DNA from: Bacteroidota bacterium
GTDB lineage: Bacteria; Bacteroidota; Bacteroidia; NS11-12g; UBA955
Reading direction: 5' to 3'
Assembly (NCBI GenBank): GCA_016787485.1
Contig: JAEUUL010000039.1
Span: forward strand, 1 to 64,000
DNA length: 64,000 nt
The position numbers and the translations under genes are program-made. Below are positions 27,325-34,102 of the stretch, piece by piece (the stretch's first letter is position 1; every line of letters starts with the position of its first letter). Under the pieces are notes generated by a model. The model saw nothing but the letters and a program-made list of their open reading frames with translations. It searched no databases and was not told where the DNA came from.

Positions 27325-27735
27325 ATGGCCGGATTTGAAACCATCTATCTGGGTGAACTGCGCACCGAAAATACGCACCTGCAAAGCGGAACCAAAATTA
27401 TTACCGACGCACCCACCGACAATCAGGGCCGCGGCGAGGCCTTCTCCCCCACAGATTTGTGTGCCCTCAGCCTGGCCAACTGCATCATCACCACCATGGG
27501 TATCTATGCCCAAAATCAGGGCTACCATATGGAAGGTACCACTGCACGTACCATCAAACATATGGCCAGTGACCCGCGCCGCATTGCCCGCATTGAGATC
27601 CATATGGAAATCAAACTGCAGGAAAAAGAGGATGAACATGCCCGCGAAGGGCTGCTGCGTATCGTAAAAACCTGTCCGGTGGCGCGCAGCCTGCATCCTG
27701 ATATAGAGCAGGATGTGCAGGTGGCGTTTGTATAA
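27325..27735 (+). CDS. OsmC-family peroxidase-like protein
   Basis: 136 residues. Members reduce organic hydroperoxides using two cysteines; here Cys48 in TDLCALSLANC (with the second Cys close by) and Cys113 in IVKTCPVARSLHPD fit the peroxidatic and resolving positions. FSPTDLCALSLANCIITTMGI and the central beta strand region are typical. The last 15 codons (27691-27735) recur, diverged, at 30371-30415, after the T9SS gene, as though DNA had been inserted at the end of this gene. This copy ends VQVAFV; the downstream remnant ends VQVKFV. Confidence 0.88.
   Translation: MAGFETIYLGELRTENTHLQSGTKIITDAPTDNQGRGEAFSPTDLCALSLANCIITTMGIYAQNQGYHMEGTTARTIKHMASDPRRIARIEIHMEIKLQEKEDEHAREGLLRIVKTCPVARSLHPDIEQDVQVAFV
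27691..27735 (+). repeat. direct repeat, left copy: 3' end of osmC
   Basis: 45 bp covering the last 14 codons plus stop of osmC. It matches 30371-30415 at 37 of 45 positions with the reading frame kept: Leu-His-Pro-Asp-Ile-Glu-Gln-Asp-Val-Gln-Val-(Ala or Lys)-Phe-Val-stop. Most differences are at third codon positions. The offset is exactly 2680 bp. Confidence 0.8.
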
Positions 27736-27783
27736 GGCTCATCCGCCCATAATCCAATTATCTTATGAATATTCAGGGTAAAC

Positions 27784-27894
27784 TTACAAAATCTCCTTAG
27801 GATATAAAGTATACTCCTTTATCCCCTTCAGACAGGATTCATTCTTCTTTAAAATATCAAATAATTCAGGCAACAGAACTAAACCTTCTTCTGT
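27784..27894 (-). pseudogene. C-terminal remnant of a foreign gene, minus strand
   Basis: An open frame of about 36 codons between two stops, with no start codon, running antiparallel to osmC. It reads like the end of a real protein (EEGLVLLPELFDILKKNES ... EYTLYPKEIL-stop). It lies in the 175-nt AT-rich gap between osmC and the T9SS gene. I do not recognise the parent family. A chance open frame of this length in AT-rich DNA is possible, so this is tentative. Confidence 0.35.
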
Positions 27895-27910
27895 CTAATG
27901 TAAAACCGAC

Positions 27911-30367
27911 ATGAGACCTACTCTCCTTCTTCTACTTTTCATTGGATACACTCTGGGAAAATTGCATTCCCAAAATTTAAAAGCTGACATACAGATAGAA
28001 TCACCAAGCAGTAAAGTCCTAGTTCTAAAATACTCTCTCTTTCGGCTATGTGTTGATACTACAATTCCTAAAATCTATATGCATGTGAAAGGCAAAAATA
28101 ACAATGGTGAGATCCATGACTCCATTGAATTAAAATATATTGGCAAAATTGATGTAACAGACTGCTTTAAATACTTCACCGGCGCTTCTGTCTGCAATTC
28201 TTCCGGAGGATCATTTCAGTCCCAAAAAATAAACAAACTCATTTTTGCTGATTCCATTTTTAGTAATTCCGGGAGATGGACTTTATTCATTTCGGACACA
28301 AGTATTAAAAGTCTTAATTTATTTGTAAGTCATTGTTGCAGGTCTGACATATACACCAACTTGAAAGGCTCTAATAATTTATATACACATTGCAATATTT
28401 ATCTTGACAAAATCAGACGTTGCTCTTCCCAGACTATTAACTTTCCCACTTCTAATAATCCATGTTTCAAACCCTATAAATATACTAATTATTACTACAG
28501 TCCCGAATATACGGATGCTATAGAAGGAGATTCCGTTGCATTTCGGATTACTCCACTTAAGACGAACCCTGATTCTGTCCTGAAGTATTACACTCCGTAT
28601 AGCTTTGATTACCCTTTTACCGGATTCTGTGTTCCAACCGGGAAAATAAGGTGTCCGGCTAACACGAATACAAAACCTATCCGAGGCTTTTATTTCGACA
28701 GCTTATCAGCAACTGTGGCATATTATCCCACCCGGGCCAAGGAGATTTCAAGTTTTGGTATTCTGGTAAGGGAGTTCCGAAAAACCAAATCCGGAACATT
28801 TGTACAAATTACTGAAAATTACAATGAAATCTTCGGATATACTGATTCTCCGGGCATCAACTTTGAACCTGTTCAATATGGATTCAAAACGCTATCCAAT
28901 GCTTGCCCCGGAGACAGCCTTCATTTTGAATTTTATGTATATGACAGTTTTAATCCATATTTCAATTATACCAATGATACTATAACCTGCAATGTTCCAG
29001 GAGGTAAAACAATTACTAAGAGAATAAGTAAATATGTTTATCATGTTATTGGAAGTGTTTTTATATCTGCGAACAATTCCGGGAAATCATTTCCAATCAC
29101 AATATCTGTTAAGGACAATTTTCCACTGGAATCAAAATATTTGACTAAAGTATACTCTGTTAATGTAAGAAATAAACCAGAAAGAAAAAGAAATTATAAT
29201 ACAATTGGAAACCGGCTCTATTTTGACTTTAATGATTCGGCAATTCGTTATAATATATGGGTCATATCAGATGTTCTATCCGATTCTGTTTTGAGAAAAA
29301 CCAATACCAGAAATTCTTTTATTGACACCCAATCTATGAAAGTTGTTGGTGCTAATCTCATTATTGAAGATTCATTTGGCTGTTCTAATTTATTCAATGA
29401 TACCATTTTTTATATACCCAAAAAATATCCATGTCTGAAGGACAGTTTCATTGGCTGTAATAAAGTACTGATTTACATGTGCGATTCTGGGGATATTAAT
29501 TCAACCTATCAATTCATAGCTACGGACAACTTTGGGAGAAAAGATACAATTATCACAAAATACCCGGGTGTAATCTTAAGAATAAAAGATAATTCATACA
29601 ACAAATTCAATCTGACAATAACAAATTCAAACATATTTTTTTATCCTGTTTCTGATAGTTTGTACAATTCAAAAAAAGGCTTAATCAAAATAATCCACGA
29701 TACAGTTATTTGTAAAAACAAATACACCCAACTGAACACAAAATACAAACCATTCAGCAGATGTGACAGCATTCGTTGGACAAGCAATCATGGATTGTTT
29801 GACTCGGGCGTGTCAATTATATATTTTGTATCGCATCATACAGAAAACTTTAAGGTTGCCGGCTATAAGGATTACTGTGTATTTACTGATAGTTTAGCAA
29901 TATTTACACACGAAACTCCTTCTGCTATATCTATTCATCGTACTGGCGATAGTCTTTATTCTGACTCTCCTGCTGCTCAATATCAATGGTATCTGAATGA
30001 TACTGCAATTGTCGGGGCAGTCTTCTCTTCAATTGCCTTGTCAGGGACAGGACCATACAAACTACGGATATGGAACCAGGATGGGTGCGATACAATAAGC
30101 CCACCTTTTCAGGTTACAACCTTGAGATATAATAAATCGCACATAGTAGGTATCCGCATTTCCCCTAACCCCAGCACTGGTGATTTCCAGATCACATCAT
30201 CTCAAATTCCCATTTTTCGGGCAGATATTTATTCAGCAGAAGGCCGCAAACTGCAGGAAAACTTGTTTTCAGGCACTAAACAGGCATTTATTTCCTTGCC
30301 CGCAACTCAAGGACTCTATCTGGTGCAAGTGAATGGCGCGTATTGGGAAAAGATCTGGATATTGTAA
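27911..30367 (+). CDS. large secreted protein with T9SS type-A sorting tail, AT-rich
   Basis: 818 residues with a signal peptide (MRPTLLLLLFIGYTLGKLHSQ). The passenger region (residues about 22-670) is Cys-, Asn- and Tyr-rich and matches no domain I recognise. Residues about 665-730 look Ig-like (SPAAQYQWYLNDTAIVG). The tail from about 745 has ISPNPSTGDFQI and ends EKIWIL, the T9SS type-A layout. The passenger is clearly more AT-rich and uses different codons from its neighbours, while the last 450 bp look native, so the gene seems to be a mosaic. The region is bracketed by the duplicated osmC 3' end. No -7 box is recognisable upstream. It is probably a cell-surface or released protein; function unknown. 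Confidence 0.85.
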   Translation: MRPTLLLLLFIGYTLGKLHSQNLKADIQIESPSSKVLVLKYSLFRLCVDTTIPKIYMHVKGKNNNGEIHDSIELKYIGKIDVTDCFKYFTGASVCNSSGGSFQSQKINKLIFADSIFSNSGRWTLFISDTSIKSLNLFVSHCCRSDIYTNLKGSNNLYTHCNIYLDKIRRCSSQTINFPTSNNPCFKPYKYTNYYYSPEYTDAIEGDSVAFRITPLKTNPDSVLKYYTPYSFDYPFTGFCVPTGKIRCPANTNTKPIRGFYFDSLSATVAYYPTRAKEISSFGILVREFRKTKSGTFVQITENYNEIFGYTDSPGINFEPVQYGFKTLSNACPGDSLHFEFYVYDSFNPYFNYTNDTITCNVPGGKTITKRISKYVYHVIGSVFISANNSGKSFPITISVKDNFPLESKYLTKVYSVNVRNKPERKRNYNTIGNRLYFDFNDSAIRYNIWVISDVLSDSVLRKTNTRNSFIDTQSMKVVGANLIIEDSFGCSNLFNDTIFYIPKKYPCLKDSFIGCNKVLIYMCDSGDINSTYQFIATDNFGRKDTIITKYPGVILRIKDNSYNKFNLTITNSNIFFYPVSDSLYNSKKGLIKIIHDTVICKNKYTQLNTKYKPFSRCDSIRWTSNHGLFDSGVSIIYFVSHHTENFKVAGYKDYCVFTDSLAIFTHETPSAISIHRTGDSLYSDSPAAQYQWYLNDTAIVGAVFSSIALSGTGPYKLRIWNQDGCDTISPPFQVTTLRYNKSHIVGIRISPNPSTGDFQITSSQIPIFRADIYSAEGRKLQENLFSGTKQAFISLPATQGLYLVQVNGAYWEKIWIL

Positions 30368-30370
30368 ATC

Positions 30371-30415
30371 CTCCACCCTGATATTGAGCAGGATGTGCAG
30401 GTGAAATTTGTGTAA
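30371..30415 (+). repeat. direct repeat, right copy: orphan osmC 3' end
   Basis: An in-frame copy of the last 14 codons plus stop of an osmC gene, 3 nt after the T9SS gene's stop. It encodes LHPDIEQDVQVKFV and then stops. Nothing of the rest of an osmC gene precedes it. It is probably the original or displaced end of osmC, or the stump of a second osmC gene. Confidence 0.8.
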
Positions 30416-30459: not shown

Positions 30460-30978
30460 ATGTTTCGCCAATTTCTCTTTATTTCATTTATAATCAGCAC
30501 CTTACTGCTTTTGCAGAATTGCGGCAGTAGCCGGCAAACCATTACCCATGGCACCGTGCAATGGCGGGACCAGTACCCTTCCTCAAATGCATCAGAACCA
30601 AGCTTTGCAGTAAAAACAACTGAAAATCATCTGTCTGCACCAGCTCAAACCGTTGAATCAGACCCGCAACCTCAAAAGATGCCTGCATTAAAACGGGCAA
30701 AACTGGCGATAAAAACTGCCCGGGCTCTGATGAAAACTGAAAATCCAGCTCGCAGTTTGGCGGACATGCAACCGCTGGCACAAAAGGCATTGAAACAATT
30801 GCACAAAAAAGAAGTAACCCCTGGTGACTGGCTGTTGTGGGGGCTTATATTGCTGGGACTGTTGGTGGTTATTTTGCTTGTTTGGCTCCTTCAAAAAGTG
30901 GGCCTGAGCAGGGGTTGGGCCTGGACACTGATGATCCTGGCCGTACTTGCAGCCCTGGCCTATCTGGCGTTTTCCTGA
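30460..30978 (+). CDS. small membrane protein with N-terminal lipoprotein-like signal
   Basis: 172 residues from the ATG at 30460; an upstream in-frame start at 30421 would place the signal segment too far in. The N-terminal hydrophobic segment ends LLLLQNCGSS, an imperfect lipobox (Asn before the Cys). A charged and Pro/Gln-rich linker follows (residues about 30-115), then two hydrophobic segments at the C-terminus (DWLLWGLILLGLLVVILLVWLL and the last 20 residues). It has the look of the small Bacteroidota membrane proteins often found beside surface-protein genes; no family function is known. Confidence 0.7.
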   Translation: MFRQFLFISFIISTLLLLQNCGSSRQTITHGTVQWRDQYPSSNASEPSFAVKTTENHLSAPAQTVESDPQPQKMPALKRAKLAIKTARALMKTENPARSLADMQPLAQKALKQLHKKEVTPGDWLLWGLILLGLLVVILLVWLLQKVGLSRGWAWTLMILAVLAALAYLAFS

Positions 30979-32916: not shown

Positions 32917-33399
32917 TTATCTCGGATAAACCAGCAGACTAAATATGAAAATTACAATGAGGAGAAATGCAGTGAAGCTGCCTTCAAAACAGATCCACTT
33001 TCGATAATTCTTGGATAAATCCCAATAACTATAAATTTCGGGCTTCCAATTTGTTTCCTTTGAACTAATTTTAAATCCAGCCAACTCTTCTATCTGGCAC
33101 ATATAACTCCTTATAAAATAATTACTGGTTGCCTGCGATTTTGAAATTGGAAATAACCAAAGTAGATAATGAAAATATAAGGTAGCCGAAGAAATAAGCA
33201 AATAAATTAAGATAAATTTTTTCTGATTACAACTGCATAGATTTGGTAATATTTCCTTTAATAAAACAGCACCGGAAATGGCAATCAATGTCCAGATAGC
33301 AATATTTACTTTAAACTCAAGTTCCACCAATGTTTTATGCCTTTGGGACTCATCCTTTTGTAATTCAATCAGGCAATCGGCTTTTTCCTTATCAGTCAT
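32917..33399 (-). CDS. small three-segment membrane protein, possibly part of the higBA unit
   Basis: 160 residues. Three hydrophobic stretches: about 31-46, 62-83 and 138-156. The rest is polar, and no family was recognised. It lies 48 nt downstream of higA on the same strand and may be co-transcribed as an accessory gene. It is AT-rich like its toxin-antitoxin neighbours. It is not evidently a toxin or an immunity protein; the position alone suggests a link. The ATG at 33399 is the first in the frame. Confidence 0.6.
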   Translation of the reverse strand: MTDKEKADCLIELQKDESQRHKTLVELEFKVNIAIWTLIAISGAVLLKEILPNLCSCNQKKFILIYLLISSATLYFHYLLWLFPISKSQATSNYFIRSYMCQIEELAGFKISSKETNWKPEIYSYWDLSKNYRKWICFEGSFTAFLLIVIFIFSLLVYPR

Positions 33400-33447
33400 G
33401 TCAGGTACAATTTAGCTATTCAATAATAGTCCATCCTGTTCATATCC

Positions 33448-33804
33448 TCAATACTCTTTTATCAGCACGTCCGTAGATATCCCCAGTGAGGCATGAAGTT
33501 TTCGGATCATATCAACGGTTAATTTACGTTTCCGGTTCAGAATTTCACTTACACGGCTTTTCAATCCAATTACCCGGGCAAGGTCCTTTTGCTTATAGCC
33601 CATTTGCTCCATGCGGAATTTGATGGCTTCAATCGGATCCGGCATATCTATAGGGAATTGCTCATTTTCATACTTTTCAATCAGTAACGTTAACAGTTCC
33701 AGTTCATCAGCTGCTTTTGAATCCTTTTTGACATCAAATATTTCTTCAAGCCTCTTCAGGGCTTCCTGATATTGTTCTTCAGTTTTAATTACTTTCTGTT
33801 TCAT
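33448..33804 (-). CDS. higA: HigA-type antitoxin with helix-turn-helix domain
   Basis: 118 residues. The C-terminal half is an XRE-type helix-turn-helix (EQMGYKQKDLARVIGLKSRVSEILNRKRKLTVDMIRKLHA), typical of HigA antitoxins of type II toxin-antitoxin pairs. The N-terminal half is helical and rich in Glu and Lys, like other Bacteroidota HigA proteins. It binds and neutralises HigB and represses the operon. It starts 4 nt after the higB stop, the toxin-first order typical of higBA. The HTH is assigned with high confidence; pairing with higB comes from position. Confidence 0.87.
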   Translation of the reverse strand: MKQKVIKTEEQYQEALKRLEEIFDVKKDSKAADELELLTLLIEKYENEQFPIDMPDPIEAIKFRMEQMGYKQKDLARVIGLKSRVSEILNRKRKLTVDMIRKLHASLGISTDVLIKEY

Positions 33805-33808
33805 GTTT

Positions 33809-34102
33809 CTAAATGGCTAGTGCGTTAATTTTATCATATTCTGCATGAGTGCCAATAAAACGAATCCAAACGATTGAATAATCATAATTTATTTTAACAA
33901 TTAAACGATAATGGTTGCCTTTAATATTAAAAACCACTCTGTTGTCTTGTAAAAAACTCGCCGTGGGATATTCTTTTTTTATATCCTGTGGTGTTTTCCA
34001 AATCGCCTCTTCCGCTTCTTTGTGCCATGCTTTTAATCGATCCTCAACATCTCCATGTTTGAGCCAAAACTCCTTTAAAGTCTTTTTCGCTATGACCCTC
34101 AC
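33809..34102 (-). CDS. higB: HigB-type toxin (mRNA interferase family)
   Basis: 97 residues of the HigB family: KTLKEFWLKHGDVEDRLKAWHKEAEEA, then a strand region HYRLIVKINYDYSIVWIRFIGTHAEYDKI. The family cleaves mRNA on ribosomes and halts growth. The start is a GTG that follows a perfect -7 box with only 4 nt between them, so the mRNA should be leaderless; a GTG start on a leaderless mRNA would be expected to lower the amount of toxin made. First gene of the higB-higA unit. Confidence 0.87.
   Translation of the reverse strand: MRVIAKKTLKEFWLKHGDVEDRLKAWHKEAEEAIWKTPQDIKKEYPTASFLQDNRVVFNIKGNHYRLIVKINYDYSIVWIRFIGTHAEYDKINALAI

Follow-up and report, generated by a model that had tools for sequence, protein, structure and literature searches.

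Repeated gene 3' ends behind accessory genes in a Bacteroidota genome point to recurrent gene gain with no integrase nearby

Introduction

Integrase-bearing islands and CIMEs are found at the 3' ends of genes, where the end of the target gene is restored and the displaced end is left on the far side of the inserted DNA. In the minimal mobile elements of Neisseria, whole accessory genes are exchanged between conserved neighbours by homologous recombination, in a scheme that to our knowledge includes no end duplication. The locus reported here resembles the displacement of rhs C-terminal ends (Jackson 2009, PMC2935791), in which a conserved end comes in with a new tail and the old end is shunted downstream by homologous recombination, with no integrase and with circles proposed, as well as the sequential displacement seen among effector-immunity modules of the Vibrio T6SS (Kirchberger 2017, PMC5361080), in which a new module enters behind one conserved upstream anchor and the old one is shifted downstream. 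The long target duplication described for restriction-modification genes of Helicobacter (Nobusato 2000, as summarised in PMC1643837 and PMC3031569) is also similar in that, according to the summary in PMC1643837, accessory genes lie between long variable direct repeats with no mobility gene. Finally, a duplicated homologous end like the one seen here is the experimental product of the single-crossover variant of homology-facilitated illegitimate recombination (HFIR, PMC3240628).

In spite of these likenesses, the locus differs from each of the known systems. Unlike rhs cores, which are specialised toxin genes with a changing tip, the anchors here are housekeeping genes with an almost unchanged protein product, and the cargo forms a gene of its own. 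Displacement in Vibrio is confined to T6SS loci (PMC5361080), whereas here the cargo is T9SS or CRISPR-Cas. Compared to long target duplication as PMC1643837 presents it, the repeats are gene 3' ends that stop at or near the stop codon, mostly with allelic synonymous differences, and while HFIR typically deletes recipient DNA (PMC3240628), no such deletion is seen. In contrast to integrase islands and CIMEs, there is no tyrosine integrase near, the five targets are unrelated, and no backbone is shared.

Methods

Isolated repeats and repeated gene ends were sought over 2.46 Mb, or 72% of the 3.41-Mb genome, and whole paralogues, internal repeats and dispersed palindromes were removed before scars were counted. 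The first stretches scanned were chosen around T9SS genes. Integrases were sought over the same genome with PF00589, a search that covers tyrosine recombinases. The relatives compared were family- and order-level genomes (70 of the family, including this one, and 108 of the order). "The window" is the whole stretch of DNA that was analysed, 64,000 nucleotides in length, and positions given with no contig name refer to it.

Results

The osmC locus comprises the following features.

27325-27735, + strand: osmC, OsmC/Ohr family, 136 aa, complete (Pfam OsmC, 6e-15; single copy per genome)
27690-27735, + strand: left copy of the osmC 3' end, read as the restored end, closing in DVQVAFV and stop (repeat comparison)
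27736-27910, + strand: leader of the insert, 175 bp, no similarity elsewhere in the part of the genome examined
27911-30367, + strand: cargo gene for a putative T9SS-sorted surface protein, 818 aa, 35.7% GC (Por_Secre_tail; own-genome paralogues with the same tail)
30153-30367, + strand: C-terminal sorting segment, 96% identical to C37:58487-58701 (the end of another T9SS gene) and 73% to C1:15941-16151
30368-30370, + strand: right junction, cargo stop codon fused to the osmC remnant (sequence)
30370-30415, + strand: second osmC 3' end, read as the displaced one, closing in DVQVKFV and stop, 38/45 identical to the left copy (repeat comparison)
30460-30978, + strand: next gene, 172 aa, lipoprotein- or membrane-anchor-like, orphan (no Pfam family)

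A second osmC end, consisting of the last 14 codons and the stop, is present in frame 2,680 bp downstream of the first, behind the T9SS gene, just as an earlier note on this DNA had claimed, and the two ends form a 46-nt repeat (27690-27735 and 30370-30415) with 85% identity. The 37 of 45 identical bases given in that note need correction, as a codon-by-codon comparison of 27691-27735 with 30371-30415 yields 7 differences and 38 identical bases; four of the changed codons are synonymous, and one is an A/K change. The remnant starts 0-3 bp past the stop codon of the T9SS gene (27911-30367) and in the same frame. Chance is not a serious explanation for this repeat, because it comes out as isolated and non-paralogous when 2.46 Mb are compared with themselves in an unbiased way, with an E-value of about 1e-6 within its segment. 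When a 26-nt core pattern of the repeat was searched with up to three mismatches, exactly two sites were found in the 3.41-Mb genome, both at osmC, and the reversed control gave no match.

A complete second osmC, which the earlier note had considered as evidence for a decayed tandem duplicate rather than an insertion, was not encountered, as there is one osmC in each of the 34 osmC-bearing genomes, this genome included. The nearest OsmC proteins are about 82% identical. No second osmC tail matching at 30 or more of 45 positions was found in the stretches examined (34 family or order genomes with a match, and 80 loci from genome contigs), and therefore no donor or sister scar was identified. 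Viral contigs gave no match to an OsmC query, and the other 69 genomes of the family gave no homologue of the gene at 30460-30978, which would be the former downstream neighbour of osmC. Among the genomes compared, no empty site with this gene immediately behind osmC was seen.

The gene between the two osmC ends had been called compositionally foreign. It is indeed AT-rich (35.7% GC vs 47% for the part of the genome examined), but it is a member of a resident multi-copy family and has a C-terminal segment in common with a paralogue, and the label foreign fits only in part. Diverged homologues of its body are found in its own genome and in 98 of the 108 genomes of the order, where the relatives are only about 21-35% identical, and the genome contains other AT-rich T9SS genes (35.7% GC on contig C1 and 41% on C37). 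The 818-aa protein has a weak match to the sorting domain Por_Secre_tail (E 3.4e-4, below the Pfam cut-off); a genome-wide search with PF18962 returned a match on the osmC contig (C22:30158-30340), and the tails of two paralogues, homologous to the tail of this protein, pass TIGR04183. The sorting domain has 125 matches in the genome. The last 215 bp of the gene are 96% identical to the end of an otherwise different T9SS gene on C37 and, because this shared block (30153-30367 and C37:58487-58701) stops at the stop codon, sorting ends have probably been exchanged between T9SS genes by gene conversion within the genome. Near-identical T9SS-family sequence is also found at the starts of contigs C36 (10-699) and C37 (10-699), where the assembly breaks in the family. 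Elsewhere in the window, an AT-rich block with 33% GC (32917-34102) encodes a HigB-type toxin and an HTH antitoxin between flanks of normal GC content, and no gene-end duplication was found around it.

The osmC site does not stand alone, as at least five scars in this genome can be assigned to one process. The earlier note saw a real scar but took it for a single site, whereas equivalent scars, five in all, were found in the 72% of the genome examined:

osmC (contig C22): 46 bp, 85% identity; T9SS cargo
menB-type enoyl-CoA hydratase gene (contig C14): 138 bp, 91%; 139-aa ORF and T9SS gene, L218 10896-13410
outer-membrane-protein gene (contig C14): 74 bp, 82%; T9SS gene, L219 10665-12977
pyridine-nucleotide oxidoreductase gene, ferredoxin/thioredoxin-reductase type (contig C12): 88 bp, 94%; small cassette
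dut (contig C8): 96 bp, 100%; complete type III-A CRISPR-Cas (cas1, cas2, cas6, reverse transcriptase, csm2-5, cas10 and array), C8:21692-31567, locus L281

These five repeated gene ends remain after filtering, and a tblastn scan of 3,961 ORF ends returned exactly the same five as genuine. The anatomy is the same at all five loci, with a complete gene followed by accessory cargo and then by a remnant of the 3' end of that gene, and the remnants are uniformly short (46-138 bp). T9SS genes account for three of the five cargoes, a share biased upward by the choice of the first stretches, and all five inserts are below the genome in GC content (35.6-43.2% vs 47%). There is no sequence common to the five inserts, and no motif common to the five repeats beyond chance. 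The genome has ten tyrosine-recombinase matches; contigs C22 and C8 carry none of these, the loci on C12 and C14 have none within 100 kb, and the earlier note was correct in placing no integrase near osmC, as the PF00589 search gave no tyrosine integrase on that contig. Long direct repeats around accessory genes occur here with no mobility gene, tyrosine integrases being those searched. A mirror scan of the 3,961 ORFs for duplicated 5' ends found nothing comparable, the antisense image of dut and an array of toxin tips being its best matches.

At the reductase-like locus (C12:11438-13920, locus L288), the remnant lies between two homologous small cassettes with differing middles, 92-95% identical where aligned. 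This arrangement gives the impression of a displacement that has been kept in place, with alternative modules piled up at a single site, and it has the same appearance as the displacement of T6SS modules in Vibrio (PMC5361080). The leader of the reductase insert contains, at C12:11586-12020, a dispersed repeat that reaches about 430 bp, has a palindromic motif and is 75-93% identical between copies, and which also occurs on C17, C37, C9 and C34.

Several other repeats were rejected as gene-end scars. The one on C17 is the dispersed palindromic repeat, the one at C34:143361 is satellite-like, and that of L039 is AT-rich and not a gene end; C27 and several T9SS pairs are whole paralogues, and the C13 repeat is an internal fragment of a paralogue. 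The repeat at C34:206871 was attributed to toxin-tip displacement. In that region (C34:205600-207509) an internal segment is repeated ahead of an alternative C-terminal end, and the whole looks like a displacement array of polymorphic-toxin tips.

The differences between the copies, and the boundaries of the homology, are informative about their history. Differences are present in four pairs, in which synonymous changes make up 24 of the 32 changed codons; the null mean is 25%, and none of 20,000 simulations reaches that count. Under a mixed null, with all changes on the left constrained and those on the right neutral (half neutral), P is about 0.03, so that the synonymous excess by itself leaves room for a drifting remnant. 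For the menB pair, comparison with relatives assigns about 8 of 12 changes to the remnant lineage, and these are mostly synonymous. Homology ends at the stop codon or a few bases from it, even in repeats that are 99-100% identical (+3 bp at dut, -1 bp at a ROK-kinase gene in two Chitinophagales MAGs). The synonymous excess and the end of homology near the stop codon suggest that two functional alleles had diverged before they came to lie side by side, and that the insert brought its own gene end. The earlier note had attributed the two osmC ends (VQVKFV and VQVAFV) to different alleles, and the two do behave like distinct functional alleles; the end of the osmC gene at 27325-27735 would have been brought, at least partly, by the insert. 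Codon adaptation of the left and right copies gave no sign of which one is native.

Similar scars were also seen in other Bacteroidota. In the two Chitinophagales MAGs (L095 1727-3174 and L081 2712-4124), 69 bp of the ROK-kinase 3' end are repeated around a gene for a 278-aa lipoprotein-like protein; the copies are 99-100% identical within each MAG and differ between the two, and they seem to evolve in concert. In Aequorivita viscosa (L082 1724-2426), the 3' end of a 540-aa gene is repeated 617 bp away, and the repeat encloses a small toxin-antitoxin-like pair on the opposite strand.

Discussion

The earlier reading of the locus as an insertion scar behind osmC is supported by our analysis. 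We think it probable that homologous recombination took place in the shared 3' end with DNA carrying such an end together with cargo, and that this added the segment 27736-30367 behind osmC. The donor would have been a related bacterium with the T9SS gene already behind its osmC, and the incoming DNA would have consisted of the last ~50 bp of the donor osmC and the T9SS gene. Recombination of the RecA type within the shared 3' end would have linked this DNA to the resident osmC, which would have stayed complete while its own end came to lie beyond the cargo, forming the remnant at 30370-30415. Most simply, the chromosome would have undergone a single crossover with a circle, or a circularised fragment, that carried the osmC 3' end and the cargo. 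In E. coli, in fact, integration of circularised DNA through one crossover left 109-950 bp of the homologous end in duplicate (PMC3240628), and circular intermediates have been proposed for Rhs tips (PMC2935791). Alternatively, homology on one side and an illegitimate join on the other, as proposed for the T6SS modules of Vibrio (PMC5361080), would give an equal product. We infer the donor, the direction of transfer, the circle and the part of RecA from the arrangement of the locus. Recombination in the 3' end is favoured by the repeat itself, its recurrence at four other genes, the synonymous excess, the boundary at or near the stop codon, the low GC content of all five inserts, the absence of tyrosine integrase genes from the contig and the lack of a common element. 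Displacement, in turn, is favoured by the reductase-like remnant between homologous cassettes, an arrangement that replacement of a resident module by a new one would leave; the process recurs at five loci, and new modules stacked before old ones are seen in the cassettes behind the reductase-like gene.

Some findings speak against this recombination model. The synonymous excess is only mildly unexpected under the mixed null. A 46-bp stretch at 85% identity is a poor RecA substrate today, and the crossover would therefore have needed the 18-bp identical core or longer homology upstream. In addition, the uniformly short remnants are more naturally explained by a site-specific mechanism, in which a tyrosine recombinase would have acted on an attachment site mimicking the osmC 3' end and restored the gene, the integrase being later lost or acting in trans. 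Integrase sites classically show short repeats of a 3' end, a coding end that is restored but differs at synonymous positions, and homology that breaks off close to the stop, and repeats of 46-138 bp fit them. We nevertheless regard site-specific integration as unlikely, given that C22 and C8 carry no tyrosine integrase, that the five unrelated target genes share no core and the inserts no common backbone, and that the cargo amounts to a gene or two, or to a CRISPR-Cas locus. The entry of DNA proposed in the earlier note is therefore retained, but a lost site-specific element explains the anatomy less well than homologous recombination in the 3' end. It is also possible that cargo entered the osmC end with a long target duplication, the target being copied in place so that the two copies started out identical and the remnant drifted afterwards. 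This pattern is known to occur with no mobility genes (Nobusato 2000, as related in PMC1643837 and PMC3031569), and the 99-100% identity of the dut and ROK-kinase repeats would agree with it. The synonymous excess, however, is unlike neutral drift and at menB falls on the remnant lineage itself, no equivalent 5'-end duplications were found in 3,961 ORFs, and a random duplication should not stop at the stop codon every time. Transfer of a gene end with its cargo predicts that boundary, whereas duplication in place gives no reason for stopping there, and we find the latter quite improbable.

A tandem duplicate of osmC around the T9SS gene, whose second copy was reduced to its last 45 bp, would account for a remnant that is in frame and coding-like, but is very unlikely, because one osmC is present in each of the 34 osmC-bearing genomes and the same improbable decay would be required at five loci, each time leaving only the last 46-138 bp. 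Least credible of all is an artefact of assembly or binning. Repeats did break the assembly, as the near-identical T9SS-family starts of C36 and C37 indicate, but there are 7 differences among the 45 positions of the osmC copies, and the T9SS tail is not identical to that of its paralogue, so that neither can be an assembler duplicate; furthermore, there are five independent cases, contamination is 0.29%, and similar scars are present in unrelated assemblies.

Bacteroidota have many T9SS surface proteins and defence loci, and how these are acquired with no mobile element in sight is a largely unanswered question. The osmC locus, with the same scar behind four other genes, points to recurrent gene gain with no integrase nearby. 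The process resembles published displacement models, which so far have been tied to toxin loci, and here the anchors are ordinary housekeeping genes; as far as we could find in a limited literature search, which returned nothing of this exact pattern beyond the precedents cited, the use of housekeeping anchors for T9SS and CRISPR-Cas cargo is apparently undescribed. A more speculative and rather doubtful idea is that Bacteroidota possess a dedicated, undescribed system which replaces the 3' ends of arbitrary housekeeping genes and in this way places single accessory genes behind them. If this were true, gene ends would be general docking sites for surface-protein and defence cargo, with no need for an element-borne recombinase. 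Such gains leave a signature that can be searched for, namely a gene 3' end repeated behind an accessory gene with homology stopping at the stop codon, and this signature makes the question of how these genes are acquired testable in any genome.
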